Shown here: positions 11,440 through 61,200 of the stretch, one piece after another
Numbering within the stretch: the first letter of the stretch is position 1
Layout: every line of letters starts with the position of its first letter
Assembly (NCBI GenBank): GCA_004123355.1
Contig: SCHM01000007.1
Location: 1,178,001-1,242,000, forward strand
Source: Amphirosellinia nigrospora
Lineage: Eukaryota; Ascomycota; Sordariomycetes; Xylariales; Xylariaceae
Length of the DNA stretch: 64,000 nucleotides
Reading direction: 5' to 3'
Notes under the pieces: model-generated
What the model saw: only the letters and a program-made list of their open reading frames with translations
Database searches by the model: none
What the model was told of the DNA's origin: nothing
Program-made: the position numbers and the translations under genes

Positions 11440-11638
11440 TAATCTCTCTCCTCACCCCTCATCTTTACCTTCAACGTCATAATAAACGTTCATCACAAAC
11501 AAGCATCGAGACATCCGGTCAATCAAAATTTATAAGCAAGTTGGAGCAATATTCAATAAATCCATCTTAGCCGAGGCACACATAAAAAGGAGCAAAAAAC
11601 CCCCTCGAAAAAGAATACAGTAAGTAGTCAAAGGCACG

Positions 11639-12325
11639 ATGGGGGAGCCACACGCAGGCAGTCCCAAGCCCGGAAGCTCGAACCACACCACAATATCGTA
11701 TTCTACCTTCACACCCGAAATGCGCGATCGTCAGGCGCGTGGGAAGAATCCATATGACATGGACTCAGACGACAGCGACTGGGACTTAGGACAGGGCGGC
11801 GGCGACAATCTTGAAGGCGGCAGTGGTTCGTCGTCATCGGCGGCGAGGCCCAAACGGACTGGCCGGTGAGTTTCCCTTCTCCTTATCCCACTACGAACGA
11901 CTACATGGGGGTTTATGGGCTGGATGAACGAACAAATAGAGAAATGAATGAATAATAATTCAAGCAGCGAAGTCAAAGCTGATGTGTGATAGTCCCAAGA
12001 ACGAAGAGCGTTTCGCTATATGCGACCGTCGGCGCATGGCGGCTCAGATCTTAAATAGTACGGAACTTCTCATGATGGCAGCGGTGCGCGATGACGAGGT
12101 GAGCTTCATTTTTCTCTTTTTCTTCATGTGTTAAATAGTCTGGTTCCTGGTTGAAGAAATCTACCTGCCAGTTTATTTAAGAGCTCATTGCTTTTCTGGC
12201 TCACCGAGCTACTCTCTCACTGAATTACTATTCTAGAGCATCCAGCTACACGCCTTAAATACACACGCATCCTCTGCGGCCTTGAAGTCGGGAATGAAGT
12301 AGCCGCACGTACAGGCGCAGCGTAA
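11639..12325 (+). CDS. Small three-exon gene, acidic/Ser-rich N-terminus, unknown function
   Basis: I model exons 11639-11865, 11993-12098 and 12239-12325. Intron 1 has donor GTGAGT and a GCTGAT branch site ahead of TAG. Intron 2 has donor GTGAGC and ends TTCTAGAG; using the second AG keeps the frame, while the first AG at 12236 gives a shorter C-terminus. The product would be 139 aa: a Ser/Asp-rich first exon (DMDSDDSDWDLGQGGG), then FAICDRRRMAAQILNSTELL, then PATRLKYTRILCGLEVG. The last two blocks resemble from memory a widespread uncharacterised fungal family (helical, MAA-x-VL...PELL...TR-x-x-LCG), but no function is known. GTAAGC overlaps the stop region, so another 3' exon is possible. 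Confidence 0.6.
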
Positions 12326-13487
12326 GCAGCAGTTTGGGAGATGATCAATTGGATGATTAAAAGAAAGTTCATCGTAATTACCTTAGGTAGAGAGAACACT
12401 GCATATCAGTCGACTGGCAGCAGCTGTAACTAAACCTTAACTAGAGCCGCTCTTGACTGGAACCGGTCCCGCATCTGGAATCGCAAATCCCAATTACGTT
12501 TTATTTCAGTAGGTATGTAGGGTACGTTGGTTGATTGAAGGTCTAGGTCTAGCTTCTGTGGTGTGGCTATTTACTTAAGTAGTTGTGTATTGTGGGGCGG
12601 GGACAACTGCCAGTGCCTGTCAGTGCCACAACACACAGTGGTAGTATTCGAGAGTAAGGCTCTCACATTTGTTTGAGGGGATATATACGACCTATTAAAA
12701 ACTGAGCTACCCAAATATAATAATAGCCAGTACGCTAATAATAAAAGACGTGATATAAATGATAGAGTGGGTTATGATATTGGATTTTGGCCCGGTGTGA
12801 CAGAGCTATGGGAGTACTGGTACGGAGTGTACGCGCAATGCAGACATAATCAACACAATACAACATACCTCGCAATGCTACACGACCTGCATACTCCTGA
12901 CGAGTTGGCTCGCAGCCACTAATCTGTCACATTCCGTAGATGCCAGAGCAAATAAAATATTGGAATATATTTTACACTGGATTGCGTCCGCTACAACGAC
13001 GTTTTACTCTACTATGCTGCGCCACGCATCACGGTTGACACACTGGTAGGGTTGCTGTATTTAGGTATTGCTCCTAGAGCGTGCTGGCTCCGGCAACCCT
13101 ATAGCGACTGATCAACGTTGCTAGAAATACCCGCCCTGTTACATGATTTCGATAGGCCCGCATCAGGCGAGTGACGGGTACTGGTGTGCATACATTATTC
13201 CTCATGGGGAGTTGGTATGCATGTGCTCATGCGTAGATCGGACTCAAGTGGACATGTAGCTTGGCCTGGAATCGGCATGTTGGCAAGCCATGTCATAAAC
13301 GCTTGCGAGATCAAGATCCTGAACCCCTTTATCATTTGCATTTTTCTCGTCCAGATTGTGCGAGGTCCATCTTTTTTTCATTCCTGACAGGCCTTCTTTC
13401 CTCTCCATAGTTTGGCAGCGAAGACAATAAAATGCATAGCAACAGCTACAACATATTAACAGGGTTTTTTCTTCCTCGGTAGTAATT
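12326..13487. other. No recognisable gene
   Basis: About 1.2 kb with short frames only. No strong repeat match elsewhere in the window and no RNA gene recognised. Confidence 0.45.
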
Positions 13488-13889
13488 ATGTCACCTTCTC
13501 ACCGCCGGTCGCCTCGGCCACAGAAGTCCCGAAAACGTAGACCTCGTGATATTGCAAACCAGCCTACAGAGCCCCCCCCCCTCCCACCACGTCTCTCATC
13601 ACGAAACACTCGTCCTCGCCGAGTAATGGCTAGATACCAGGTGCACCAGTACTTGGACTCCTCGTCTAATGGTGACTCTGACTCCGAGTACGTCGGCAAC
13701 CTAGAAACAGAAGATGAGAGTAATCGAGAGAGTGGCTACGAGGAGTTGGATGACCGGAGCTCCATGCATGCTGACAAGGATAACGGAGAGTTCCTAAAGC
13801 ACAGTCAGGAGTATGATTATGTCAGGGCCTCTACTGCCGCGATCCAGGTTGAGAATGAAGACTTCGATAAGGCAGTTGTGACGGAGTAG
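13488..13889 (+). CDS. Hypothetical basic-then-acidic protein, 133 aa
   Basis: An open frame with a good ATG encodes a very basic, proline-rich start (RRSPRPQKSRKRRPRD, then a PPPLPPR run) that could act as a nuclear localisation signal, followed by a Ser/Asp/Glu-rich tail (SSSNGDSDSEYVGNLETEDE). It is low complexity and probably disordered. It lies about 300 bp upstream of, and on the same strand as, the decayed DUF3435 recombinase. It could be that gene's N-terminal part or a separate cargo ORF; I do not recognise a family. Confidence 0.5.
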   Translation: MSPSHRRSPRPQKSRKRRPRDIANQPTEPPPLPPRLSSRNTRPRRVMARYQVHQYLDSSSNGDSDSEYVGNLETEDESNRESGYEELDDRSSMHADKDNGEFLKHSQEYDYVRASTAAIQVENEDFDKAVVTE

Positions 13890-13938
13890 CCCCACTTTAA
13901 CTAGAGCACGCCAGCCTCGCTGGCCTGCTCAGGTAGAA

Positions 13939-14044
13939 ACAGAGCATACGGAACGTATTGGTAAGCTCGGGTACAGCCAAGCCCGTCAACGGGCTTGGTG
14001 TGCTCTGTTAGCCCTGAGCGGGTCAACCATATTCCGTGTGCTCG
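13939..14044. repeat. Nested palindrome with perfect 9-bp hairpin
   Basis: The core is a perfect stem-loop, CCAAGCCCG-TCAA-CGGGCTTGG (13977-13998). Outside it, GAGCATACGGAA near 13943 faces TTCCGTGTGCTC near 14033, an imperfect inverted repeat. The unit separates the small ORF at 13488-13889 from the recognisable part of the DUF3435 pseudogene. It could be a tiny foldback insertion or a cis-acting site; a terminator is not implied. Confidence 0.5.
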
Positions 14045-14189
14045 CACATGTAAAAAACACAAAACTGCAGACTAGATTCATAGTTTAACTTAATCTATCA
14101 GATCCTCTGAAACTACTCTGGTACGCTCACTTGTATACGCACTGGTTCAATCCCTCTGTTAGAATAAGCTGTAAAAGTACGCTAGTACT

Positions 14190-17010
14190 TCACAGCAGTC
14201 TACGACAATCTGGAAGATAATCTCTATCTTGATCATTTAGACCTTGCCTGTGCTCTCAATGGCGTTGATCTTGGTAGAAATGCTGCCAGCGACGCACGGC
14301 TATCTGACAAGACCCTCTTGGACGATGACGAGGTCCTATATGATGGCAATACCCGGCCTGCTCGGGAATGGCGCCATAAAATGATAAGCCTGGATAAGGA
14401 ACTCTTCACCCGCAAGGATTACTCTCCTGGGACAGAGAGGCTAATCCAAAATGCCGATAAGGGAATGGCAGTTGTACGTGGCATCACTGTTTCGCGTCCG
14501 TGTTCACTGCTAATACCGAGGGATTCTGCTGCAAGATAAAATGCAAGGACGACCCAAGCTGCTGTACCGATACGTCTCGTTCAAAGTGATCTATTGCTTC
14601 CTCGACTGGAAGCTTTGCCAGAGAAAGACGTCAATGGAAGAGCTAAGCGAGGCTTTAAAACCTGGAGCTCTCTAGTAACCTTTTGGTGTGCATTTCGACT
14701 CGCATTTGAGCACGGGGCAAAGAAAAGATTGACAAATTCGTAGACTGTCGCAAGATGAACAATGTACGTTGAAGCCGGATCTACATCTTATTGTTCCCCT
14801 CCATGACGATATTACACCACCTCACACCCACTCCCCTTTGCACTCCTCCTTCGTCACGTTCTATCACCCGATTGATCTAACCATATTATTACAATCTAAA
14901 GACGATTGCGAGCCTTTCCAAGGCTCACCATTTTACGTCGGCAAAGCGACAGAACCGCCCGATGACTTTGGATGACCTTAAGCTACAGCTTGAGACTACC
15001 TTGGGCACAACAGGAAAAACTTTTAAGCTTGGAGAGCAACGTATTCTAGCTATTTTATTCCTCCTCCTCTTAGCACCGGCGGGCGCCCGTCCGCCGTCTA
15101 TTCTACAGCTTCGGTTTGGAGACATTCAGATTGCCTTACGCCGAGATCCTAGCAACCCTATCCAAGGTCCGAAAAGGCTCCTGATCCGCTTCACGCTTAA
15201 ATTTACCAAAAGGTACTTCGGCGCTAAAGCATCAAAGACGTTCTATCTTCCGAAAATGATCTACGAGCCGACCTTTCTGTTGAACCCTCACGTTTTTCTT
15301 CTGGGCATACTGTTTCGCCACTAAGCCTTCCTGGCAGAGGCTCTCAACGACAATCCCTACGTGCTAGAAGAGATGGTAATCCACGATGATGAGTCAGAGC
15401 TAGGATCCCACTCAAGAACTGTCGCGTAGAAGTGGATACATATACCGTTAATACTCGCGGAGTATGAACGGCGTTGTTTTTATTCCGTGAGAAGAACAGC
15501 CTACGGGGCATACCAGTGTTTCGCAAAGCCGCACAAGGGCTATATGGATACTGCATGACCGAGTCCCTGTCGGGTTAAGCATAATGCCGGGCTGGGTGAA
15601 GAAAATTGGCGGATTTATTGGCTTCGAAAACAACACTATCTACTACAGCCTCCGTTATATGGCGGGCAATAATCTCGACCACAGTGGTGCGTGTCCATCC
15701 CAGCTATTTACATTGCTCCCCATGGTGACTAACATTCCATTATCGCAGTCGATGTAAGCGAGGCCCTCCGCAACCTCATCCTTGATCACGCTTCCGGCTC
15801 GGACACGTTACAAAAACATGACTTGAGCTGCAACGTGTGTGTGACCTCTGGGCTATACATATGAACAGATGCCTCAGTGTCACAAGGGCTCAGATAGAGT
15901 GCTTGGAATGGGTTCAATTGAGTAATAAGCAACTATGGTACCAAAGGGGCCATATAGATCTAAGTTCCCTCTCCCCTTGAAGGAGGTTTCGAGCCCTTTT
16001 ATGCTCAGAACTCTCCTTCTTTCCTACAGTCGCGGACCTCTACGGGACCGAAACTAGAGACCTGTGTAGTCGGAGAAGCGATTGTCTCGGTGTTCGAGTT
16101 CAGCTCGGTATCTGCTTCTGAGACTCACGATAACTTCGTACGACTGCCTCAGCCTCATAGGGTAGTATCTAGCGAACTCCGTATATGACCCTGTGTGGCA
16201 CTGTATTGCGCACTTAGCCAGGGTCCGTGTGACACTCAGCGGGCGCTCCTTCGGGAGGCCATTACCCACGGATCGTCCCGCAGTAGCCAACGCCCGGTAC
16301 AGCTAACTCCAGAGGAGTACAGTCCATCAATAAACACCCTAAGATTCTGCGAATGACGGAGAATCTACGGAAAATTCGCCCGTGGACGCGGAATACTCTA
16401 CCGCCCGCCTTGAACTACACGCAATGAAGAAAAAGCTGGCGAGGGACCTCATAGTCACCATTCGTCGTGAATGGACAGAGAAGCAGGCAGTAGAAGATAT
16501 TGAGCGCTGGATCTAAGGAGTAGGATTCGCCCCTATCGAAAGCAGCCGCCTCGCACGTCCCATGGGATCGCACCAGGAAAGTCTAGGGAGTATTGACGGC
16601 ATCCCTGATTTGTGACTTACCCACGCAGCGGCAGCCATCAATGCAATTGTATCTTATTGTAACATTGAGGGGCCTGTTAAGACCGGTATTGTCGCAGCGA
16701 AACAGCCACCGGTACCAATCGAAATTCAGGAGGAAATCCGACAAGGAGCCTTAGGGGTCTGTCCTAGTCAAGGCTGAAGACGAAAGGCTGCTCAGATGCT
16801 TTATCTACGTTGGGAAGGCCCTAGCTCTTGCTCTGTCACCGAAGGACCCGAAGTTGAGTGGTTATTGCAGGACTTTCCACAGCTCCCATGACCTGGCTAG
16901 GCACTTCCGGAGACAACACCTATCCAGGATGAGGCCTAATGACAATACTTCTTACCCTGTCTGCCTGAATTTGTTATGATCAATAAGAAGCATCTTCGGC
17001 GCCATGCACT
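14190..17010 (+). pseudogene. DUF3435 tyrosine recombinase (Starship captain family), decayed
   Basis: Plus-strand readings line up with a fungal DUF3435 protein from end to end. The N-terminal part near 14180-14480 reads DNLEDNLYLD, NTRPAREWRHKM and DKELFTRKDYSPGTERLI. The core at 14962-15324 reads LLLAPAGARPPSILQLRF and ends NPHVFLLGILFRH. Further traces (NTIYYSLRYMAG near 15640, NLILDHASGSDTL near 15775) follow. The C-terminal zinc-finger-like end near 16890-17010 reads RHFRRQHLSRMRPND and KKHLRRHALDV. DUF3435 proteins are tyrosine recombinases that mobilise Starship giant transposons. This copy has several frameshifts and stops and a solo LTR at 15878-16234, so it is inactive. Catalytic Arg/His/Tyr residues could not be assigned by eye. 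Confidence 0.85.
15878..16234 (+). mobile_element. Solo LTR with 5-bp target duplication (CTCAG)
   Basis: The 357-bp segment begins TGTCACAAGGGCTC, ends GGGTCCGTGTGACA and is flanked on both sides by a perfect CTCAG duplication (15873-15877 and 16235-16239). It is the inverted relative of 8713-9050. It interrupts the DUF3435 pseudogene, so it inserted and lost its internal part after that gene was in place. Confidence 0.9.
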
Positions 17011-17397
17011 GGACGTCCTCGGTATATGGACCAAGGTAGATCGCGGTTCAAGGTAAAAGGCTTTTTGCCTACGCCGCTAATTCGTGATATAACTTATCAC
17101 GTCTGGATTGTTGTACTGTGCTTCAATAAAAGGCATGTAAGCACTAGATTGACTTGTGTGGGTGGGTAAGAGACCTCTCTCTACATACACGGACGGCACA
17201 GTCATGCTATATGTCCTTAACATATGCTTTCTGCATTCTTTACTAGATAGTTAGTGTTTTAGTACAAAATAAACAATGAAACTTTCAAGGAGGGTTAAGT
17301 GTGACATAACTACGCGATATCAAAGTCAGGCATCTTATAATAGTCTTACATCTCATAATAATTAAGAATCTTAGGTAGGAAAGCGCAACGGTAAAGT
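17011..17397. other. Tail-to-tail spacer
   Basis: Intergenic sequence between the end of the DUF3435 pseudogene (plus) and the end of the Myb/SANT gene (minus). AT-rich, without an ORF. It should hold both 3' ends, but no single polyadenylation site could be chosen. Confidence 0.5.
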
Positions 17398-18441
17398 CTA
17401 ACGTGTAACTATATACTGCCTCATTATCTGTTTCCTCCACTGATGTTGTACCGCACCGACAGTCCGGTTCATCCTAGCCGCAATATGCGTATCTAGTAAA
17501 CCCTCCTTCTTGAAAATTTTAAGTTGTCGTTGATCTTGAGTTGACCAACGACGTGCAGTTGCCGTTGTCGCTCTTACACGAGGCGCCGGGGGCTCCGGTG
17601 ACGAAAAGTCAAGGATATCTCGGTGATGCACTGGCTTTCTAGCTCTAGTTCCAGTGTATCGCTCTTCGTCGTTATGTACGCTGTCGCCATCGTCCTCGCT
17701 CCCACTATCAGCCTCCTCATCGTCTTCACTCTTATCCTTCTCATAAGCACGATGATCTCGGTGATCAAGTCTGCTTTCATTATCCACATGGTGACTAGCT
17801 CTGTCGCAAATAGTCCTGTCATGATCGTGCTTTCGGCTGAGTGTTGGCAGCCTATCGGAAGTAATACCCTCCTCTAACATGTTCGACTGGATGCCTAGCA
17901 AGTCCTCCATCATCCCAAGCATTGGCCTGGTATATTGCACAAACTGGATGGCTTGTTTCCTGGAGACAGTAATCGAGCCCGAGCGTTGTTTTGATATTTT
18001 GTGTGGTGAAGTTAAGGAAGTATGACGGGGAATAGGGAGGTTCTTTCTCCTACTGTTGTCATGCTCACGTCGGGTCGTGTTCTGGGTTTGGACGCGTTGT
18101 GGGGAGGCATAGCTACCGTCGCTATCGAAGTCATCGCCGTAATCAGGCTCACGGTTGTCTTCGATGCCATCAGTGCCATTGTGGGGATCATCAGTATGAC
18201 TGCCGTTATCAAGTTCATTTGTTGTGTTCTGGCAAGAGATTTCCTGAACTGGGTGTTGGTTAGGGTGAAAGTGAAGGCAGCCTTTGCATAAGTTGATAGC
18301 ACACCCACAAAAGTATCGTATATCCAGGTGTTCAGAGCAGAACTTGCAGTAGTATGTAGTAGTGGCCGGAGAATCAGCACAGACTGGTTCCGTCTGCACA
18401 GAGCTGTCTTCTTTTGGTCCCAGTGGACAGAAGGGTGTCAT
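17398..18441 (-). CDS. Cys-rich zinc-finger plus Myb/SANT-like protein, 347 aa
   Basis: This is one of the few long intact frames. I start at the ATG at 18441; the frame opens slightly further upstream without another ATG. Residues 32-59 form a compact Cys/His cluster (C-x2-C, C-x-C, C-x2-C, H-x-H; YYCKFCSEH through CKGCLHFH) that could bind zinc. The middle is acidic and Asp/Arg-rich, with SEDDEEADSGSEDDGD. The last about 55 residues, RRWSTQDQRQLKIFKKEG to NRTVGAVQHQWRKQI, look like a Myb/SANT helix-turn-helix with spaced Trp residues. A nuclear DNA-binding role is inferred. Myb/SANT genes are reported among recurrent Starship cargo, and this one lies tail-to-tail beside a DUF3435 gene. The 5' end may be spliced. 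Confidence 0.7.
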   Translation of the reverse strand: MTPFCPLGPKEDSSVQTEPVCADSPATTTYYCKFCSEHLDIRYFCGCAINLCKGCLHFHPNQHPVQEISCQNTTNELDNGSHTDDPHNGTDGIEDNREPDYGDDFDSDGSYASPQRVQTQNTTRREHDNSRRKNLPIPRHTSLTSPHKISKQRSGSITVSRKQAIQFVQYTRPMLGMMEDLLGIQSNMLEEGITSDRLPTLSRKHDHDRTICDRASHHVDNESRLDHRDHRAYEKDKSEDDEEADSGSEDDGDSVHNDEERYTGTRARKPVHHRDILDFSSPEPPAPRVRATTATARRWSTQDQRQLKIFKKEGLLDTHIAARMNRTVGAVQHQWRKQIMRQYIVTR

Positions 18442-18514
18442 GTCGATCGTCAATAATCTTGGGCATCAGACAATGAGACCATGTATCAATAAGGGACTGT
18501 GAACACAGATAACA

Positions 18515-18850
18515 TTAGTTGTTGTTATCGACGTCAACATCAACATCAATGTCAATGTTATCGCTGTTATGGCTCTGGCTGCTAGTAATATCGGCTCCTC
18601 TGTGGCGGGCTGCTGGATCGCTCCTAATAGCCCTGGATAGTTGTAGCATCGCTTCGGTTGTTCTGAGTGTGATATCACGAAACGCCGCGCTATCAAGCTC
18701 AATCGAGTTTGACATGGGTTCCTCTTGAGGGCTATCTGGTTCGATCGAGTCTAGCAGTCCTGTTGACGTGGAAGGGTCGGCAAACGGATGTGGACGTGTC
18801 GTTCTCGTTCGTTCGACCGGGCTTGCCTCGCACGTTAGCGCCTGGCTTAG
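18515..18850 (-). CDS. Small acidic ORF, possible 5' exon of the Myb/SANT gene
   Basis: The frame runs from a stop near 18850 to a stop at 18515; the first ATG is at 18715 and gives 66 aa (MSNSIELDSAAFRDITLRTT...) ending in an Asp repeat, DIDVDVDVDNNN. The upstream open part (ADPSTSTGLLDSIEPDSPQE) is also protein-like. Just downstream, the minus strand reads AACTAATG...TGTTCACAG, a good branch-and-acceptor pair, so this ORF could be an upstream exon spliced towards the gene at 17398-18441. I could not find a splice that keeps the frame. It may instead be a separate small gene. Confidence 0.4.
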   Translation of the reverse strand, partial: LSQALTCEASPVERTRTTRPHPFADPSTSTGLLDSIEPDSPQEEPMSNSIELDSAAFRDITLRTTEAMLQLSRAIRSDPAARHRGADITSSQSHNSDNIDIDVDVDVDNNN

Positions 18851-20024
18851 GGCACGTCGATGGAACTACGGATGCATGTGCGTTGACAGGCGTGTGGTTC
18901 TTGTTGATTCTGTTGAGACTGTTGATTTCGGGCAGTCTCTACTGTAACCTCTCTTTCCGTGATTCCAGCGTTCGTCCTCAAGACGACTGGTTTAGGTTCG
19001 AAACATAGCGATTGTTATGATATGTATTAAGAAAGAGACGATAATGAAATGTGGCACTGTGGTTGTAAGCCTGGTGGGAGCGAGGCAAGGGCAGGCGAGA
19101 GACTCTTGGTCATATGGATTGCTGGGACGCGCCGTTGCCCAAACCAGCGAGACAGTCTCAATCAGACGGCATATGACAAGAGACATGGACGGCCTCACTC
19201 GGACGGCACAGAACGACTTGGAAGAGACACCTCGGACCGGGACAGTACCTGGAAGGCCACGGCCAGTACCCAAGGGAGTACATGGCGTGTCTCAACAGAG
19301 TACATCACGGCGATGAGACATCTCCCGGGTCCGGGAAGCAGATGGGACTTGGCGAATGGCCATTTCTGGCCGGTCCTGAGCGTGAATATAGCTATATTCC
19401 GACTTCAGGCAGCCCTTTTTATGTACCAGGTGTCTTAACATGTTTGACTTATTATGTTAGGAGCAACATAATGAAGCCTATATTTCCCACTTTAGAGAAC
19501 ACTCAGGTATCTCAGCACAGAGAGCTGGCAAGCTTTTTTACAGTAATCTGACAATTTATTTGGGAAATCTGCGAGTAAGACCTAGCTAGGGATCTCTGTG
19601 GCCATCAGAGAAAAGTAACCGCATTCCTTGAGGATAAGCTACGTATGAGAACGCAACGCAACGCATAACTGTGGAAACGCAAACGCATCGCATATTCGTA
19701 AAGTCAAAAGTCAACGCATAACTGTGAATATCGTCCAGCCTATCCCGTCAGATAGACAATAGCCCAGTACCTGCGTAGGATTCCATAAAATCGGTAAGAG
19801 ATAACTGGGAAACTATAAATACGTTAGGGATATGTATGCCTTACTTAGAACAACCGTAGATATAGAAACATACCTTAAGAGCAACGTGAAGAGAAAAATG
19901 AAAAAAAAGTATGGAGTCCTAGGCTAGACATTTGTTACCTTAGATCCATAGTCCGTAGATCCTATAAATATTAGCTTGTGTGAAATTATTATAATAAAGT
20001 GAAACCTACTATTGTAGCCAGAAC
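18851..20024. other. No firm gene
   Basis: Overlapping readings occur on both strands between 18992 and 19551 (longest 129 codons, plus, 19049-19438), but none has recognisable motifs and composition does not favour one strand. Around 19658-19735 a short repeat AACGCATAACTGTG appears twice. The rest is AT-rich. Confidence 0.35.
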
Positions 20025-21305
20025 TTAAAATTCTGGATCATCGCCTTGACCAACAAGATCGCCACTCCAATTAGGATACGAAACTATAGGAGCGATTTCA
20101 AGTTCTACATAGAATATTAGTAATATACTAGGGAAAAGACAATAGAATATTTACCCTCTTTAGCCTCTTTTGAGGTCAGAATCTGATTGTTAAGCATCCG
20201 CAGTATTATCTCGAAGACTTCCCAGATCAGTTACTGAGACTTCTACATACAAGATTAGTTATGTACTAGGAAAAGGACAATGGAATTCTTACCCTTGTTG
20301 CTCTCATTCTCATTCATGAGCATCGGTAGTTTTATTAACTTGAGGAGCTCCCGAACCAGTTACTAAGATTTCTACACCCAATATTAGTTATATACTGGGA
20401 AAAGGACTATGGAATCCTTACCTGGATCGTCTACAGGTGGATTCGTGCCGAAGTTTCGCTCAACTGGGTAAAGTTAGTACATTACTGGGAACTACCCATC
20501 AACAACCCTCAGGAAAAATGTGATGAAACTTACTTCTGGCTACGGCTACTCGAGATCAGGCCCTAGCAACGCTTCCTCCCTTTCCTCCTGGTGGAGGCGC
20601 GGTAGCTATTAATCGTTAGTATCGGCTGTGAAAAAGAAATCATATTACGGACCTTTGCGCTTTGTTCCTTTTGTCTGTTCCTCCTCGACAACTTTGAGAA
20701 CTTCTACTTCGGAACTCTCGTCTTCCTCATCTTCATGAATAGCCTTTCCTTTTGTATTCTGATCTTGAGAGATGCTCTTGCTACCAACGTCATTCACATA
20801 TTGAACCTTGACTTCATAGTCGAGGGTTTCTAGCCCTCCGATACGTTCTGCCAGCCTAATTCGATTTTTAACTTTCTTTAGGTTCGCAGTGGGAACCTGT
20901 AGCTTCTTGCCGTCGGGCATATCTAGGCTGTGAGCGAACTGTCGGTATTGATTCACAATGACGCAATATATCAGGTTTCCCCTGTAATGTGAATGGTAAT
21001 CCGCATACGAGTTCCAAGATGCAAGGACTTGCGCCGGGAATTCTGATTCTGAATGGTTCCGCATTATCATTAATGCACCGATGTATGAGACAAGAGTTGG
21101 TGGATGCATGGGATTATGTTTCCAAGCATTGACGCCATCCTGGAATGAGCGGTAGAAGGTGTCCGCCTTGGTAATGTACTTGTCGGTGCCGCTAGTATAA
21201 TTATTCAGCTACAATCCAAGAATACTTAGTGGGAAATAAAACCAAAAAAACTTACGGGATCTTTTTATCATCCTCCTCTTTCTTGCTTTCGGAGGAAGGC
21301 GCCAT
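20025..21305 (-). CDS. Multi-exon gene with repeated 3' exons, unknown function
   Basis: Exon 1 (21256-21305) encodes MAPSSESKKEEDDKKI. It is joined across an intron (GTAAGT...CTGAAT...TAG, 21192-21255) to exon 2 (20649-21191), keeping frame into GTDKYITKADTFYRSF. Exon 2 holds the main body and a Glu-rich tail (EDEEDESSEVEVLKVVEEE) with a basic end. A third block follows an intron with a perfect TACTAAC branch (20606-20648). Candidate exons continue at 20534-20605, 20422-20463, 20293-20371, about 20142-20229 and 20025-20090, the last reading IAPIVSYPNWSGDLVGQG then a stop. Exon 2 itself reaches a stop at 20645 if unspliced (198 aa). Some 3' exons contain in-frame stops, so the downstream part may be decayed. 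Not a family I recognise. Confidence 0.6.
20090..20430 (-). repeat. Tandem exon-intron repeat units
   Basis: Three successive units of about 125-140 bp each contain, on the minus strand, a donor GTAAR(A/G)ATTC..., a conserved intron body (CCTTTTCCTAGTA then AACTAAT), an acceptor TGTAG and an exon starting AAGTCTCAGTAACTG or a close variant. Candidate exons of 79 and 88 bp differ by 9 bp, a multiple of three. This is internal duplication of an exon together with its intron. C-to-T type differences create stops in some copies. Confidence 0.65.
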
Positions 21306-23042
21306 GGGAACTTGCTACGAATGATGCAACTACCTCCTTAATTGGATCAACTGACCTCGAAAGTAATTCTACTTAATATTTCACTGTTAGTAGTCTGTAT
21401 AGTGATAAAGGACGCCGGAGGTTAATTGCTCAATGTCGTCGCGTGGCCTTGGGATGCTGTGGTTGTTGAGGATGGGAAGTTGTTGTGGACAGAAAGAGAT
21501 ACGTTTCGCGATGAAGGGTTGTTGCCCCGAAGTAACCGCACTTACCGATTGCGTAGGGATCTAGTTGTCGAGGTAGGATATAAGGTAGGGTACTATTTAG
21601 TGTTAGGTCAGCCCAAATAAATAGATTCTTTCTCTCTAGGGATGCGGTAACGGGATAAGATCATGGGGAGAGCATAGGGTCAAGACGGAAGAGAAGCTTA
21701 CTTGTTACAAGAGAGAGAAGTCCTTTGGGCTGGGTGGTGATGCTGTCGTGGCTAGAGCTACTGGTGAGAAACCGCCGAGGTTATGAGAGCGGCGACGAAA
21801 AAATGTTGTAGTGGTGTGCGCGGAAGCTGAAGCTGCGAATGGCCGTGCACTGGTAAGTAAGGAATTTACGGAAACAAGCGTGCAGTGCGCGTGTGAAGGC
21901 GGCTCCCTGGGAAAGAAGAGAGAGAGGTGGGCGATATTGAGGATTGGATGAAGTAAGTAGCTAAAGTAGTTCCAGATAAAAAAGGTTACCTAGGCTATGT
22001 GTGCAGCAGAGGAATGATATTGATATATGTTGACTTGGGTGAAGAGGTATGTGGTGGAGAGCTTCAAGAAACACCGGGCTAGGAATAACATGGCATTTTT
22101 GATGAGCTCCTCTTCAGCTTCCGTCAGGGGATCATTCCCGGGCTCTGCGAAATACTTATCAGTATGAGAGCACTGTATATAGCAACACGGGAAATATTAC
22201 CGCCGGGTTAAGTCTCCAGCGACGGCTGCATCCCTGATGTGGATGAACCATCTAAGGTCGTGCTTGCAGAGCCTTCTTCCATTGCGGCTACACCTTGGAA
22301 ACGCACGCTTCTTCGAGAACGGAGCAAAATTAGAAGTAGACGACTCGTCTAGAATTATAAATTTACGCCCACGCCAAATCATAAAAGGGGAAACGAACAC
22401 AAGCAAAAAAGCGCGGCGAAGTTGAATGGGATGGAGTGATGTTGTGGGAGTAGCGACCCACATCTACTATAGTGGGCGTAGGAACCACTTAAAATACATA
22501 ATGCTTTAGCTACCGCCGCTACCTACCTGCACTGCAATCAATTAACAGTTCTTAACCTAGTGTAAACGCTTTTGTAAGTAAATCTGGATATAACGTGTCA
22601 TTTAAGAGATCTAAGCACACAGAATTAGCTACCCTTAGTGCTGCTTGAAATGCAATTGACTGTTTTTTTACAAATTGGAGGTTAGCACCCGCACGGTCCC
22701 CTTCGGCCCCTTATAAGCTATTTGAGCCCTACCTATAGGTACCTAGGTAGTTAGGTGGTCTGTGCTACGACTGCCCGCGCTGGCGAAGAAAGCGCACCTA
22801 ACTAGACTCGACTAGATGCTCATACCCTCCCAATATACGCGTTCAAACCAACCTGTGTGCCAACCTGTGTGTGGGTGTAGATGTGCGAATAACTGACCTG
22901 GCGGACAACAAGGGTACCCTGAATCCTCCCAACATTAATTCCTTACTTGTCCATTCTCGACCTCTCAGATCAGGCATTCGTTCTCTGTCACCACGCCTCT
23001 TGCCGCATCTTGAATCCGCCATAGCACGAAACGCTGCCTATT
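21306..23042. other. No firm gene
   Basis: Divergent spacer between the gene at 20025-21305 (minus) and the ORF at 23043 (plus), so it should contain both promoters. Short readings at 21426-21620 and 22197-22463 have no recognisable motif. A 21-bp motif near 22449 (TAGCGACCCACATCTACT) recurs with changes near 52333, suggesting a scrap of a shared repeat. The last 120 bp before 23043 are C/T-rich, as in fungal promoters. Confidence 0.4.
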
Positions 23043-42999: not shown

Positions 43000-44370
43000 C
43001 TAAAGATCACCTACATTATTACACCCTAAGCACACCCGCAGATGCCCTGGTGCGCCTACCACCTGCTGTCTCGTACGGCGTCCCGAGTCCATAGCTAGTA
43101 TGGCCAGGCGTGATCTCCGTATTACAAAACGACGTACCCTCCTTGACCGTCCTCGCGAACCAGCCGCGCGTACCCTACCTCTCCGTACCGCGCTCCCCGA
43201 TCTCGACACGTTATATTAGGGTCTGGCTGGCGCCCTTGCCTGTTGCCCGTTAGATAAGCTAGCCTAGTCCCACAATACCATACCTAGGCATTAGCTCTCG
43301 CTGAGGGTCCCCCATAGATCTCCTGTCCCGTAGCTCTTCTGTATTGCGACTCAGCGCCAGAGGGCTTATCCTTAGCCCTAAGCACCTTTCTAAACAAGAC
43401 GTGGCGGAGCTTGCGGCACGTGGCAGGGGGCCATGGGTGTGTGCCCCCTTCCCCTTCGCACGGGTAGTCATGGCGGCCTTGTGAGCCGCGTTGGCCCGAT
43501 CCGTGTGATCTACCCCTAGGGTCGCGCAGATCTGCTGGCCGAGGGCGCGGTGCGTGCTCTCCTGCCTCGGTCACGCGGCGAACCACCTGTAGTCCTCCAG
43601 TGTTAAAACGGTCACCCCGGAGGCCTTCCGAGTGCTTCGTACCGCATAGCTGGTCTAGGCGCGCGAGAGCTTTAATCTGGGGAGATCTTGACTGCATGGT
43701 CTACAGGAAGTCACGTACGCCCACGGAGTCTCGAGCTTTTGGGATATCGAGGGCACGCGCCCTCGTATATGCCTCGATCCACTGCCTATACCAGGTCTCC
43801 AGGATGACCTGGCGCGCGCGCGAGCACCGTATATCCCATAGGCGAGTGTCGTTAAACTAGCTCTCGTCTGTAGAGGATACCCGCTGCTTTATAGCATCCA
43901 CGATATTATATATGGAGGGCTCGATATTTGGGAACAGGGAGTTGGAGCTCCACGAGGGTGGACGACAGGAGCGGGGGGTAGCGGTTCGTACACTACGCCG
44001 AGAGCGCCGGGTAGTCCTCGCTGCGAATCTCGCTGCGAATCTAGCTGCGAAGCTGCTTCACGGCGCATGGCCATGGCTGGCACAAGCGGCTCCTCTGGGC
44101 GAGCCCCTACTCTGCGTGACGCGTCTCGTAGTCCCTCGTGTTCTCTCGCTCTATTAGGCGTCTCGTCGTAGGCGTAGGTGGAGGCCCGTTGTATGCGTGG
44201 AGGCATCGCGGGGGACCGGCTTGCCGAGGTCTACGTGGCTCCCGAGGCCACGAAATCTGGCTGTGACACACAGCTGGGTGTACTAATCGGTCCAGGTATT
44301 CGAGTCGTGCGTGGACCTGGCGGTCACGAGCTCGCGTGGGGGCGGATCTCAAAAGAAATATATTAAACAA
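43000..44370 (-). other. GC- and CpG-rich island with decayed coding, unrecognised
   Basis: The composition jumps to GC- and CpG-rich against an AT-leaning background. Minus readings at 44107-44370, 43889-44206, 43284-43697 and 43000-43209 are Arg/Pro/Ala-rich and partly overlapping, consistent with one old gene in several frames (for example LWDIRCSRARQVILETWYRQ near 43830). A triple tandem repeat CTGCGAATCT/C at about 44019-44056 encodes repeated SQRD. No domain identified; a transposon ORF or foreign DNA is possible. The survival of CpG means it escaped RIP-like mutation. Confidence 0.4.
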
Positions 44371-53149: not shown

Positions 53150-55200
53150 ATCTGATCTGGCCACCTGGGTAGCTATACGGTTGGACAGCTTATTATGCAT
53201 TGCTTGGTGTAGATGCTTGAGCGATTCGACCAAGTGACCCTCAGGCACCTCGGGATACTCCCGTGTTGTTGCCCGGTAAGCTTCCTCATCAGCCACTACA
53301 TGACCCTGTGGAAATCCTAGAGCGTTGATGTAGTAAATCGTTGCACGGGATAAATAGCGGGTGAGGTAGTCTGTCTCGCCAGTAGCGGCGGTTTTATCTG
53401 CGCTTTCTTTAATTCTGCCAAATCCGCGATGAGCTATTTTATGCTAGTCTCGAGTATCTCCCAATTGGCATTCAAATGGGTTGTAATTGCGTCTGTTAGT
53501 TGGTGAAACATAGTCTCTGGAATGCCCGATGGACCGTCTCCCTACTCTCGTATTGCCCCTTGATTATTAGCGTCGGCGTCAGCTATCTTAGTAGCTAGAA
53601 TATTGTTTATCCGTCGGGCGTTGCCCTGGAGGTCTGCCATTAGCTCCTTTAAATCTGATGCGAGTTGACTGTTATGAGCCTAGCTATCGGCGATAAGATC
53701 AATAAACTGGACTTTATTTTGTTTATCGGACTGTATGCCGTGCTGTTGAAGAAGACTAAGTCTCCCGTCTTCAGGTTAGCCGTCTTCTCATGCGGTCTAG
53801 GAGCAATCATTCGCGGTGTCGGTGTTAGTGATGAAGAACTCGGAGTAGTAGCCCGTAGAGCCGGAATAGTTGGACACTCTCCCGTTAAGCTACGGAGAAA
53901 TCTCCGGGGGGCAGTGCCGGCGCCGGTAAAAGGTAGCTTGGTTTGGGGTGGTTTGGAGTGATGGCAGTGATGTCAGTGATTCGCCAAGTGCAGGGTTAAA
54001 GTGGAATATTCTCGCAGGGTATATCCTTCATCATCACCACCAGTCGCCGTATACTCAGGGGAAATAGGGGCATTTACGGAGAAGCGAGCAGTGCTGGAAG
54101 ATAGCGTCAATGTATTTAGCTAGGTATCTGCAAGAATATCCGTTGAGTTGGTTGACCCATGGACGAATAAAAGTAGCTGCTGCTATGCTGTTAGTGCGTC
54201 GATAATCCATGAGTCCGGTACGTAGTTGTTCCACTGAAGATCATGAGCGGGATCACGCTCGCGGGCCTTTTCCAGTACATGTTGAATGCGAAGCTTGTCG
54301 AGCGAAATCATGCCCAGGGCATCTTGGAAATTGAGGTCTTTATCTTGCAAAGTTTCTCTAAATCTATCGGCCTTGCGTGCCGTATACGCCTCAGTGAACT
54401 TGCTCGCTAACTCGTGCCTCTTTACTGAAAGACCAAGCTCATTGGCAGTATTCGTAGAAGTCTTGACGACGATAATTTTCTCAAATCGTCCCACGGAAGT
54501 AGTATTCTACTAGCATCATAACACATTGAGCTAGTGTCCTCCATGTCAAGAAGCGTGTATGCTTCTGGCTTGGCAACCTCTGCCATTTTATCTGTGTCGT
54601 AGAAGCTCCGAAGTCGACAAATTATAGATAAAAGCAGAGACCGGAAAATAAGCTGTTCCTGAAGGCTTATGGCTCCTGTATGCCTATTATCCCAGTGTCG
54701 ACACCATCTCCAGAGGACTCCTTGCTTAGTTCCAGTGGTTAACTGGGATTGTAGTCATGTCTTCAACTGCTGTGGTGGTATCTGGTTGATTGGCATGACA
54801 TCGCGCGACACTCACCTATGGTCATTGTCCTGGCCAGCTCCGGCCACTTGATCCGAGCCGTCAACTTTGTCACCCTGATGGGCGCTAACAATTGTCGCGG
54901 GGATGTGGAGTCTATATATATCATGCAGCCAAATGGTGACAACGGCGTCGTTTTGTCCGTCAGAACAATATCATCATGTTCTTGTACGTCGCGCAACGCT
55001 CGCATATGATCGTTGTTCTGACGAATCTCGGCGACACTATCTTGGCCCGGGTGGGCGTTGACGATACCATCATGCTCTTCACCGACCACCTCGCTTCGGC
55101 TATCATCAGTAGTCGTTTCCCTGCTAGCGTAGCGGCCCCCTCCAATATTGGTAGCCCTTTAGAGTTAGGTTTTCTGCCCATTGAGTCTTTTCGGCACTAC
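53150..55200 (-). pseudogene. Decayed multi-exon gene, unknown family
   Basis: A chain of protein-like minus readings runs the length of the region: GEEHDGIVNAHPGQDSVAEI and PLSPFGCMIYIDSTSPRQLL (about 54830-55110) ending at a GTGAGT donor near 54812; MAEVAKPEAYTLLDMED near 54590; KRHELASKFTEAYTARKADR and DALGMISLDKLRIQHVLEKA (54183-54494); a Ser/Thr/Pro-rich linker near 53780-53900; INNILATKIADADANN and MFHQLTDAITTHLNANWEIL near 53450-53640; and a clean C-terminus LTRYLSRATIYYINALGFPQ to a stop near 53150. Several stops and shifts break it. The product would have exceeded 500 aa. I do not recognise it. Confidence 0.45.
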
Positions 55201-55289
55201 AGGAAGCTCCTACCAAACAACAAGATATAGTCAGCCAGCTTAAATACTTCTGCTTTGCGATCTTCCTCTTGCAATAAACACGAGCCTAC

Positions 55290-58200
55290 ATTTTTAAAGC
55301 TTTTATTTTGCTATATTAAATACATATTTTTTTAAATAATAGTTTTAATTTAAATATAATATTTTAATAAAAATAATATTTAATTTATTTTAATTGTTTT
55401 TTTATTATTTTATATAAACTAAATATATTATTAATATATTTATAGTATAAAAAAAATATTTAAAGTTTTTAAAACTATAAAAATAGTTTAAATTAAAAGT
55501 TAACTATAAATTTAAATATAATTTTTATTATTTTAATATAAAATATATAGCTAACTAAATATTTTATAATATTTTTATAAACTATAATTAAAAAAACTTA
55601 AATATTTCGAATATTAATATAATAATAATTTAAATATATTATAATTAATTAATATTTATATTTTAAATTAAACTTATAATATAAACTAATTATAAAAATA
55701 TTTAGTTTTTTATATATATTTATAAATAAAAAAAGCTAATACCCGGAAAGTTTTTATTTTATTTTATTATAGTTTAATATAAATTAGGGCTTTTTTTATA
55801 GTTTTTATATTATAATGTTTTTATTTTTATTAATTAATATTAATATAGCTATTTGGTTTAAAAAACTTTTATTAACTACTATAATAAACTTAAATATATT
55901 AATATTAATATATTATTTAATTAAAATATTTAGTTAATATAAATCTAAATATAATTAAAATTATTTAGTTAATTTATTTGATAGTTTTATTTTTTTTTTT
56001 AGTTTTATTTTATATATAAAAAATTAATTAGTTTTATTATATTTTTAATATTTATTATATTATAGTTTTTATATATATATTAAATATACATATAATATTT
56101 TATTATTTATTTTAGTATTAACGGACCGAATTATAGTTTTATAGTTAATTATTATTTATATATATTATTTTGTTAGATATTTTTTTTAATATAATTAGTT
56201 AACGTATTATTTTTCGATTTATAAAAAATTTAACTTTTAGTTTTTTTTTTACGCGTTATATAAAATTTTTTTTTAATATAACGAACTAATCTAAATATAA
56301 TATATTAAAAGCTAATATAATTAATAAACTATAAAACTATTTATATATTTATTTTTCTAGATATATTATATTTAAATATAATATATATATTTTAATTAAA
56401 TATAATCTAAAAAAATAAATAATATTTTTATATTAGCCGATTTAATAACCCGGCTAAATTAAAATTAATAATTTAGTTTAATAATTTATATTTAAAATAT
56501 TTTATATTTATATAATTTTTATTATTATTATTATTTTTTACATTAAATTTTAATATATTTTTATATATTTTTTTATAATATTAATATTTTTTTAATATAA
56601 AAAAGTTAGTTTATAAGTATTTTTAATAATATTATTAGCTTTTTTAATATTATTAGTTTTTTTTTAACGTTAAAATCTTTTATAATAAAAATAAACTTTA
56701 AATATTAAATAACGCTATAATGTTTTAAAGCTATAATAATTTTAATAATAAAAAATATTTTTTTTATTTTTTAGTAGTTATATTATTATTTATATAAAGC
56801 AAATAATATTTATAACTATTATATTAAATATTACGAATTTATTAATTTTTATAGTTTTTTTGTTTAAATTTAATAAAATAGTAGATTTTATTTTTATAAT
56901 AAATGATTAGCGGATTAAAATATTTAAATTTTTAATAATATTAAATAAAATTAATATTATTTTTTTTAATTTATTTAACTAAAGTTTTTTTTTACAATAT
57001 TTATATAATTTTTTTAATAGTAAATTTAATAACTAAAGTTATTTTATATATATTTAATAATATAATAATTAATATTTTTATTATTAAAATTATAATTTTT
57101 ATTTTTATATATTTTTTAGTTATATTTTTAGCTTTTTTTTTATTTATATTAATAAATATTTAAAATTATAATTAAAGTCCGGATTTAATTAAAAGAAAAT
57201 CTATAAAAAATATAAATATTTTAGTTTATTATAAAAACGTTTTATAATTTATTATATTTTTTTTTTTTAGCTTTTAATTCTTTTTAATAATTAAATAATA
57301 TATTTAAATTATATATTTTATACAGTTTAAATATATATTTAGTTATTTTATTATTTGCTAAATTTATAACTAAAACGTTATTTAAAGCTTTATATTTTTA
57401 ATAGCTAGTTTTATTATAATATTAAATATAGTTTAAAATATAGCTATAAAATTTTATAAATTTTATTGTAAAGTTATATTATTATTTATTATTTTTATAT
57501 AATAAATAGCTTAATATTTTAAAAAAATTTTATTATAATTAAATTATTATAAATATTAAATATTTTATATAAATTAAATATTCTACTTATAAAATAAATA
57601 TTTTTTTTTAATAATATATTATAATATAATTAAGTTAATTTAAATTAAACTTTTTAAAAATAAAGCTTTATAAATATAAATTTATTTATTAATAATATTT
57701 TTATTTTTAAATAAGCTTATTTTTATTATTATAACTATTTATTTTATTTTAATATATATTATAGCTATATATAGCTTTTTTTATTATAATAAAAATAAAC
57801 TTTTTTATTTTTTTTTAAATTTTTAAAATTATTAATTAATAAATAATTTAATAATTTTATAAAGATTATTTTAAAATAGTTTATTATATTTTTAATAACT
57901 TTTTTATTTATATAACTATAATTTTTTTATTTTTTTATTTATATAATTATTATTATAGTTATTATTATTATTATAATATAAAATATTCGTTAATTTTTAT
58001 TTAATTTTAATTAACATATATAAAAATAATCTTTTAATATATACTTTATTTAATAATAATTATAATATTTAATAACTAATTAGTTTGTTCGATTTTTTTA
58101 ATATATTTGCTTTTATATAAAGTATATTATATTATAATAAATCGACTAAAAAATAATTTTATATATAATAAATTAAAAATAGTTAAAATTAGAAATAAAA

Positions 58201-61200
58201 TTTAAAAATTAATAAAAATAATTAACTTATTTATTTTAATAAAATAAAATTATTAATATTTTTAATAGTTTTTTAATAAAAATATTTAAAATTTTATATA
58301 AAATTTTATAAATTATTTTTATTTTTTATTATTTTATATATTTAGCTTTTTTTTAGCTTTCTTAGTAATTATTTCGAAACGTTTTAAATAATTTTAAAAT
58401 ATTTTTTTAGCGTTTTAATTTTAATAGTTTTTTATAATAAAGCTTTTTAACGTAAATTATAGTTTTTAAAACTATTAATAAATCTCAAAATAATTGTTTA
58501 TAAAAAATATTTTTTATTAAAAATCTAGCTATAGTTTTATTATTAATATAATATTAGTTTAATAAAATAAAATAAGAAATTTTTAAAAAAATTAAAACTA
58601 TAAAGCTAAATAATATTAAATTAAAAATTAATATAAAATATTAAACGTTAAAATTTACTATACTTTAATAAAAGGGGATTTTTATAAAGGGTCCTTACTA
58701 TAAAGTGGAGCTTATTTTATTAATAAGTAAAGTTTAGTTTTATAGATTAAATAAAAAAACTAAAACTAAGTAAGTTTTTTACTTTTAATAAAAGCTTTAT
58801 TTAATATTTGTTTTTTTTTATTAATAATATAAACTTAATATTATACTATTTTTAATAAAGCTTACTAAATAATATAATAAGTTTTATAATTTTTGTTTTT
58901 AAATTATTTTAGTTTTTATTTTTTTTTCGGCCGGTAGTTTATTTATATAGCCACTTTTAATCGTTTTAATAATATTTTATACCGTTTTATAACTTTTATA
59001 GTATTTTAAAAGTATTTAAACTTTATATTAGTTTATTTTATATCGATTTATATTTTAGTAAAATAAAAAAAGCTTAAAAAGGTTTATATTAATATTATTT
59101 TATATCGATTTATATTTTAGTAAAATAATAAAAATATAAAATATTTTAATATTTGTTTATTTAAAAAAAACTACGTTATTGTTTTATAATTTTATATAGT
59201 TTAAATAAGATATAACGGTATTAGTTTTTAATAATTTATATCGAGTTAATTAGTTTTTAGTTTAATATTAATTTATAATTTTAATATTGCGCCGATTTAG
59301 TTATAGCTAAATATTTATGTTTTAGTATTATTTTTAAAATAGTTTTACTATTGTTATACTAATTATATCCGGTTAAAGCTAACGTTTATAATAATATACT
59401 ATTGTTTATAACTTTAGCTATATTATATTTTAGGTTTTTTATACGTTATTTTATAATTTTTATAAAAAGATTAGTTATTTATTTTATTATAATTTATGAT
59501 TGTTTTATAATTTTAGTAAATCCGGCAAAACTATTTATTTGTATTATATTTTAAGTTATTATATAGTTTATTATTTTTTAATATAAAAGTATAAATTATA
59601 ATAATTAATTAATTTATATATTATAGGATAGCTAACTATAAATGTTATATATTTATATAATTACTTTATTTTAAATTTTATTTGGATTTTTATATTAATT
59701 ATAGTATATTTAATTATATTATTTTTAGTAGGTTTTTTTTAATTAGTTGTTTTATAAGTTATAATTAAAGTTTATTTAGAATTTAAAGCAAATATTATTA
59801 TTAAAACTAAGTTAAAAAAAGTTAATAGTTTATTTTAAAAGCTTAAAAGTTTTATAGTTAAATATAAAGTTTTAGCTTTAATTAAAAATTTAATACTAAG
59901 GTTAATTAAGGTTGGTTTTATTTTAGTACTATTATTTAAGCTTAATATATTGTTATAATAGCTTAAGCAATTTATAATAGTTTTAGCAAAAAATTTAATA
60001 AAAAATTTATATTGTTTTTTGCTATACTTTGTTAAACTATAATATTTAGGCTAGTATTGTTGCTAAATTTTAATTTGCTGCTAAAATTACTAGCGGTTAT
60101 TAAATTTTTGTTTATATTTTTAAAATAAAGGATTTAAATTTTAATATATTTGGAAAAATATAAAATATAGCTATTTATATTAAATTTTAGTATATTTTTT
60201 TATTTTAAGTTTGCTTACGATTTTAAAATAATAAATTAAAAATTTATTTAAACAAATAATTAAAAAAATAAAAGTTATCCGTTTATTTTTAATAAATTTA
60301 ATAATAATAACTAAATATAAAATTATATTAAAAAAAAGTTTAAATAATAAAATAATTAGTTTAATATTATTATATATTAAATAACGGTTTAAAAAAACTT
60401 GTTTATTTTATTAATAAATATTATTAATATAAACTAAAAAGTTAAAAATATTAATTAATATTAGTTAAGCTAGCTATAAATTAAAATAGGTTAATAAAAA
60501 AGTTTTAAAATTAAAAGCTAAAAATCGATCTTTAAATTAACCTTTAAGCTAATAAACTTTAGTTTATTTATACGTCAAACTAGTTTTATAAGTATAAATA
60601 TAAATATTATTAATAAATATGACGCGTTTATTATATAAATAATTTAACTAAATATATAGATTGCCGCTAATAAGTACGCTAGCTATAATTATTATATAAT
60701 TAAAATTAGTATATTTTTTTAATAAAAATATTAGCAATTAATATTAAAATATATTATTACTAGCTAAATAGTTATAATAAATAAGCTGTTGGCCTAATAA
60801 TAGCTATTAATAGTTAGCGGAGCTAGCTATAGCTAAGTATATTTAGATAAAATCAATAGGTATTATATATTTTTAGTATAATTTTATTTATTTTTGTTTT
60901 TTTTTTTTAGTAATAAAAATAAGACTTTAAAAAAAAAGTTTTTTACGAGCAATAAATACGCTTAAAAATTAAAGCTTAATAGTTTTTTATAAAAAATATT
61001 TTATATAATAATTAATATTATTATATTTATTTTATTTATTAATTATTTATTTAATTAAAATAAATAAAGTTTAAAGTAGTTATTTATAAGCGTTTTATTT
61101 AAAAACGTTTTTTAAGATTTAACTTTTAAAAATATTATTTAAACTTAAATAGTTTATTAATAAAGCTTTTAATTTTTATTTAAAAACGATTATTTTAATA

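Follow-up and report, generated by a model that had tools for sequence, protein, structure and literature searches.

Introduction

Three kinds of described mobile element offer the closest parallels to a degraded gene pair, a DUF3435 (PF11917) tyrosine recombinase and a zinc-finger/SANT gene, found in a 64,000-nucleotide stretch of the Amphirosellinia nigrospora genome (contig SCHM01000007.1, here C9; the whole stretch, C9:1178001-1242000, is called the window). Starships range from 15 kb to about 700 kb and carry cargo, and captains do not form a single clade (available sections of PMC12134995). Among the Cryptons, CryptonF elements carry GCR1_C and some CryptonS elements carry a second protein, a C48 peptidase (available sections of PMC3212892). 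Both proteins of PIF/Harbinger elements are required for transposition in the rice and zebrafish elements, and the Myb-like protein of zebrafish Harbinger binds a subterminal motif and brings the transposase to the nucleus (PMC9710019, in the portion available).

C9 is an accessory-type chromosome carrying what is probably a dead copy of a two-gene element. The recurrence of the gene pair, its common right end, constraint on both genes and the decay of the window copy are established by the comparisons reported below, all of which were made within one genome (an assembly of 48.1 Mb in 11 contigs, in which C9 accounts for 1,326,445 bases). We conclude that the window probably holds a dead copy of a compact tyrosine-recombinase transposon of ~6-7 kb, with two genes and without recognised cargo, whose SANT protein would serve as a partner in the manner of PIF/Harbinger. 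A previous sequence-only reading had interpreted the locus as the rump of a Starship. Positions given without a contig name are those of the window.

Results

A DUF3435 recombinase and a ZZ-SANT gene recur as a tail-to-tail pair

Two queries, the SANT proteins of the window and of C6, identified nine loci in the genome that encode ZZ-like zinc fingers and a SANT domain (ZZ-SANT loci), and at five of the nine the gene is tail to tail with a DUF3435 gene. Besides the window pair (W), these are A (C9:41-47 kb), B (C9:467-473 kb), C (C9:116-126 kb) and a pair at C10:490-496 kb whose genes are ~2 kb apart. The genes of C are ~5.6 kb apart, and ~5 kb of other DNA, including an open reading frame (ORF) that we take to be mariner-like, lies between its recombinase and its right end. 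On C9, four of the five ZZ-SANT loci have a tail-to-tail DUF3435 gene within 7 kb, a number reached in 3 of 1,000,000 random placements, with the 7-kb limit picked after the loci had been seen. No DUF3435 match lies within 10 kb of the ZZ-SANT loci at C9:58 kb and C1:13428 kb. Another copy of the recombinase, D (C9:692-695 kb), lacks its later part in the stretch compared, and no SANT partner was found for it.

A six-frame genome search with PF11917 gave 36 matches, 33 of them above the curated cut-off, distributed over C9 (14), C6 (9), C10 (8), C1 (2), C11 (2) and C4 (1); our grouping gave 20 loci, 17 of them above cut-off. ZZ-SANT and DUF3435 matches are mostly on C9, C10 and the first 0.6 Mb of C6. 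With one query each, collections of bacterial/archaeal and of viral contigs, neither of them fungal, yielded no relatives.

Three further observations concern the surroundings of these loci. At C6:202826-209138, near the end of a large contig, an uninterrupted ZZ-SANT frame of 420 residues is followed 2.3 kb downstream by a DUF3435 gene on its own strand, so that the pair is arranged differently there. A protein family without an assigned name has 11 matches on C6, C9 and C10 (e.g., C10:1013157-1013810, C9:57042-57554, and nine others); the two members scanned had no above-cut-off Pfam match, and each sits tail to tail with a ZZ-SANT gene. Finally, an island of 16% GC (C10:487001-489685) adjoins the C10 ZZ-SANT/DUF3435 pair.

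The recombinase gene of the window is full length but broken

The window recombinase had been described from its sequence as full length but broken, which homology searches bear out. The proposed profile search placed a DUF3435 match at 14971-15366 with 108.9 bits, well above the cut-off of 25.8 (six-frame genome search), and the segment 14962-15321 searched alone against Pfam returned DUF3435 at 1.1e-28. The gene is full length and broken because pieces homologous to the sister copies, located by tblastn, extend from 13488 to ~17053 in changing frames. Its N-terminal coding part (13488-13876, plus strand; ORF 13488-13889) matches C9:472496-472819, C9:694438-694698 and C9:41812-42021. In sister B the same stretch belongs to a single open frame (241 residues from stop to stop), which runs on into the sequence that follows position 14200 in the window. 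The remainder of the gene (14200-17053, plus strand), delimited by tblastn pieces, the Pfam DUF3435 match and motif rows, includes two C-terminal C2H2-like motifs; such motifs are also seen in the sister recombinases, where Pfam support is weak and below cut-off. DUF3435 scored above its cut-off in five of six recombinase pieces taken from B, A and the window, and in one C10 piece; a search of the PDB with the C10 piece returned no match.

We take four conserved segments to be the Arg, Lys, second Arg box and His/Tyr segments of a tyrosine recombinase, and the catalytic residues within them are presumed. In tblastn rows from nine loci including the window, the first Arg segment and the Lys segment are present in all nine, the second Arg box in eight (it is degenerate in D) and the His/Tyr segment in seven. 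The presumed catalytic Tyr is found in each of the six other loci that align there, one of the six being the query, B (eight others were compared). At this place the window copy has an Asp codon (GAC, 15820-15822, plus strand), as read directly from the codon and from the tblastn rows.

The partner gene encodes putative zinc fingers and a SANT-like domain and is also decayed

A zinc-finger plus Myb/SANT gene tail to tail with the recombinase had likewise been predicted, and it is present on the minus strand, with domain labels that rest on its sister copies. Its open part (17398-18453), defined by the ORF, the sister copies and domain rows, contains the second zinc finger (ZZ2, 18393-18223), a conserved helical motif (18000-17881) and a C-terminal SANT/Myb-type domain (17568-17428), each placed by domain rows aligned with the sisters. 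The window SANT ORF gave no Pfam match even at E = 1; the sister copies gave weak zinc-finger and Myb/HTH matches below cut-off, and the C6 SANT protein gave weak ZZ-domain matches in the PDB (best E 0.12). The sister copies have two zinc fingers of ZZ/FYVE/B-box type followed by the C-terminal SANT domain. The helical motif is seen in W, A, B and C, and the SANT-like rows are conserved in all nine ZZ-SANT loci except C. Structure prediction for the window ORF was poor (mean predicted local distance difference test score, pLDDT, 45.9; 18 of 347 residues at >=70) and is not used as support.

This gene had been called intact, a description that does not hold because the first finger has been cut off and CxC replaces the CxxC of the sisters in the second. 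The decayed N-terminal part, with most of the first finger lost, occupies 18454-19006 (minus strand) and was recognised by three-frame reading and a DNA match of 18636-18708 to B; it includes the ORF 18515-18850. The small ORFs at 13488 and 18515, which had been tied to the pair as possible pieces of a Starship rump, do belong with it, as the N-termini of the recombinase and the SANT gene, respectively; their assignment to a Starship rump is not supported.

Two insertions resembling miniature inverted-repeat transposable elements (MITEs) interrupt the recombinase. The first (13877-14194, 318 bp), delimited by dispersed copies with aligned ends, is flanked by duplicated GCAGT (13872-13876 and 14195-14199) and cuts the recombinase N-terminus (ORF 13488-13889) from the remainder; among 42 matches listed, copies at 88-96% identity are on C11, C9 and C7. 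The second (15878-16234, 357 bp, TGTCAC...GTGACA), placed by aligned ends and a checked repeat, is flanked by duplicated CTCAG within the recombinase coding region and has copies on seven contigs at 84-92%, save for one partial match at 69%. Repeat-induced point mutation (RIP) was considered as a source of the decay seen in the window element and rejected: every kb of 13001-20000 has a negative composite RIP index, so RIP is not seen there.

Both genes appear to have been under long purifying selection

Divergence at nonsynonymous sites (dN) was set against the proportion of synonymous differences (pS), with stop-containing codons excluded. Among W, A, B and C, the recombinase has pS of 0.76-0.81 (0.63 for W-B) and dN of 0.20-0.33; the SANT gene has pS of 0.72-0.87 and dN of 0.37-0.57. 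Most ratios of dN to synonymous divergence (dS) are not computable because dS is saturated. The less saturated W-B recombinase comparison (pS 0.63, dS 1.38) gave a ratio of 0.17 (0.12-0.22). The W-C SANT comparison gave 0.24 (0.19-0.43; 75 of 100 resamplings), and B versus the recombinase at C6:547k gave 0.10 (55 of 100 resamplings). Low dN at near-saturated synonymous sites therefore suggests, in our reading of these sequences, that both genes were long under purifying selection before the copies decayed.

Amino-acid change far below synonymous change in both genes would also be expected of a host gene pair co-domesticated from an old element, kept for a cellular role, later duplicated and now decaying on an accessory chromosome, and co-domestication of a transposase together with a Myb-like protein is documented for PIF (available sections of PMC9710019). 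A host function is nevertheless highly improbable: five copies in different flanks have in common a non-coding terminal block that ends sharply (see below), the matches are mostly on C9, C10 and the first 0.6 Mb of C6, and the C9 copies examined look broken.

The copies share a right end

Beyond the SANT gene, each of the six pairings among W, A, B and C showed similarity, with 0 of 100 shuffles reaching the score in each case. This similarity closes with a conserved terminal block of ~95 bp (19297-19390, plus strand) ending GAATATA, which an alignment of W, A, B and C, a model of the block and a fifth copy identify as the right end of the element. A pattern search for the block allowing at most one mismatch returned six places, namely W, A, B, C, a copy designated E, and one on C5; the C5 place, with one mismatch, gave no score with the block model and was discarded. 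E (C9:898561) scored 68.1 bits with a model built without it. E and A are 93.96% identical over 1,126 aligned columns (C9:897512-898618 versus C9:46107-47216), and their alignment runs 10 bases beyond GAATATA through A/T-rich sequence before homology is lost. As a separate observation, A differs from E at 50 places, of which 40 show a G-to-A change and 2 a C-to-T change in A (42 together), and 28 of these 42 turn TpG into TpA. This is a RIP-like, one-strand pattern on an accessory-type contig, although no RIP was reported on the supernumerary DNA of Fusarium poae (available sections of PMC4994206).

The close match of A and E bears on whether the pair moves at all. A passenger pair could have been copied by segmental duplication of accessory DNA: the chromosome does hold duplicated core segments, and, with only the right 1.1 kb in common, A and E might both belong to a single duplication. 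We regard such passive spread as very unlikely, since the homology of A and E and the similarity among W, A, B and C both stop at the conserved end.

In the window, homology to the core chromosome (C4:1344352) starts at 19387, inside the last four bases of GAATATA, and the letters in common are TATA, which is probably the strand-exchange core. The right flank (19387-22089, plus strand) is duplicated core-chromosome DNA, from C4:1344352 onward at 80-86% identity in its main pieces, and lies outside the element. The far end of the window element is thus present, because four copies have the same right end and the window flank there is core-derived. The sequence-only reading had found no element boundary; the right boundary is now placed at 19390, the left is bracketed, and the locus exceeds the range originally given to it.

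The left end lies within a bracketed interval

The window segment 11551-12320 is homologous to core C4, and this homology ends before the left part of the element (12321-13487, plus strand), the region upstream of the recombinase within which the left end lies. Because C4 homologies bound both sides, the unit is confined to 12321-19390 and is at most 7.07 kb long. A candidate left GAATATA is at 12963-12969, 525 bp before the ATG, and would give 6.4 kb; it is suggestive only, and the flank at this repeat showed no match to the C4 site. C has GAATATA at C9:126045. The blastn homology between A and D reaches back 909 and 566 bp, respectively, from the recombinase ATG, and local alignment adds ~60 gappy bases; upstream similarity is significant for A-B and for D-B (0 of 100 shuffles). 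A would be ~6.3 kb long if position 40903 is its left end. Its left part, searched in the genome, found only A and D, and its left flank only itself. No inverted repeat pairs were found within the upstream stretches of the window, A or D, and three were found within that of B; comparison of the left limit of A with the inverse of its right region, the one left-against-right comparison made, gave at most seven shared bases.

Between the recombinase and the right end of W, A and B, the ZZ-SANT gene is the only gene recognised, apart from inserted repeats. This content bears directly on the proposal that the locus is what remains of a giant DUF3435 element after cargo loss, a captain with one Myb/SANT cargo gene. 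The DUF3435 gene does stand at one end and read inward, DUF3435 pieces are frequent on C9 (14 of the 36 matches), Fusarium xylarioides is known to have a Starship (available sections of PMC11620798), and the left end is not fixed. Four diverged copies, however, agree in their second gene and in their right end, with otherwise only inserted repeats or transposon DNA recognised in between, and rumps formed independently would not be expected to arrive at a single gene and a single end. The bounds of the window unit are 12321-19390, whereas the Starship sizes cited above start at 15 kb (PMC12134995, in the portion available). We therefore consider a Starship rump unlikely. The view of the SANT gene as Starship cargo is not supported either, given its tail-to-tail recurrence at five of nine loci, the common end just beyond it and the core-derived flank there in the window; that part of the sequence-only reading which recognised a degraded mobile element with a DUF3435 recombinase is right.

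The chromosome is a mosaic

Window stretches 19387-22089 and 11551-12320 are diverged duplicates of two separate C4 places (74-86% identity in the main pieces), from which we conclude that C9 is a mosaic. Within the right flank, 20103-20422 is a diverged tandem repeat with an offset of ~138 bp, and its C4 counterpart has more matching places. Elsewhere in the window, GC content falls to 5.5-20% per kb over 55001-64000 with a high TA/AT index, resembling a heavily RIPped or centromere-like AT block, and a local GC peak of 58.6% at 43001-44000 has a high RIP product index of 1.40.

Discussion

The explanation that we favour is a compact transposon with two genes. The product of the first would be a DUF3435 recombinase whose C-terminus bears C2H2-like fingers; the second, in tail-to-tail orientation, would specify a protein that combines two ZZ-like zinc fingers with a conserved helical motif and, at its C-terminus, a SANT/Myb domain. 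By analogy with Harbinger, the SANT protein may bind sequences near the element ends and hold or guide the recombinase there, and its zinc fingers could perhaps contact chromatin. To excise and insert the element, the recombinase would exchange strands at a short core located at the ends, probably the TATA of GAATATA; the order of steps, and whether the path runs through a circle or by cut-and-paste, are parts of this model. We consider the element something other than a remnant because the recombinase, the recurrent second gene and the fixed far end have been kept through deep divergence.

Several results weigh against this interpretation. The evidence comes from one genome, and the C9 copies examined look damaged (introns were not modelled), for which reason we infer movement from E and the sharp end. 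The recurrence of the pair has exceptions: of the 17 DUF3435 loci above cut-off, 12 lack a tail-to-tail partner as judged with the two SANT queries, and both genes are on one strand, the SANT gene upstream, at C6:203-209 kb (203/206 kb) and at C10:1012-1024 kb (1012/1022 kb; ~9 kb apart). The C10:490-496 kb pair has further ORFs and a ZZ-like fragment between its genes, and no recognisable terminal block was found with the block model in the stretches searched at this pair (C10:494k), nor in those searched at the C6 pair. The A-D recombinase ratio of 0.35 (0.22-0.52) indicates weaker constraint than W-B. On the left side, the end is bracketed within the window rather than fixed. The sequence upstream of the window recombinase shows no significant similarity to its counterparts in A, D and B (the score is reached by 4, 63 and 8 shuffles in 100, respectively), and the left GAATATA may be a chance occurrence, as the motif occurs six times in the first 54 kb of the window. 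No GAATATA is present at the A/D homology limit or on the left side of B. An empty site was not found; C4 sequence upstream of the junction has no second genome copy beyond a 41-bp match.

In the open-licence papers available, consulted in part, a two-gene DUF3435/ZZ-SANT element was not found in print, and in those DUF3435 and Starship papers that were searched for SANT the matches shown were author names. If the interpretation is true, the ZZ-SANT protein is a candidate partner for DUF3435 recombinases, and a recombinase tail to tail with a ZZ-SANT gene, with an end at GAATATA, offers a signature that can be searched for. A broader and rather doubtful extension is that compact DUF3435 elements with an obligate ZZ-SANT partner form a lineage of their own, perhaps ancestral to cargo-carrying Starships, and that many 'solo' DUF3435 genes of fungi are their remains.

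Comparison with known systems

The element resembles Starships in having a DUF3435 recombinase as its first gene, reading inward ~0.6-0.9 kb from the left homology limit in A and D, and in the presumed catalytic Tyr retained by the sister copies (six of six aligned others), which the window copy has exchanged for Asp. It differs from them in the ~6-7 kb size of the window and sister unit, in the lack of recognised cargo, and in a recurrent second gene with the right end just beyond.

Like the CryptonF elements of fungi, it is a small DNA element with a tyrosine recombinase and perhaps a short direct-repeat core (available sections of PMC3212892). Unlike them, it has DUF3435 and a second, SANT gene, and it has no GCR1_C in the pieces scanned: six recombinase pieces from B, A and the window and one C10 piece gave no match at E <= 1, the window being the source of the one N-terminal piece covered. 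Cryptons are further marked by terminal direct repeats of 4-6 bp and by a lack of inverted repeats.

Its plan, one gene for a catalytic protein and one for a presumed Myb/SANT protein, is like that of PIF/Harbinger. The catalytic proteins differ, a DDE transposase in Harbinger versus a tyrosine recombinase in the DUF3435 element, and no DDE family was listed in the Pfam scans of the same six recombinase pieces and the C10 piece. As we read it, the resemblance to PIF/Harbinger is one of working plan, not of descent.

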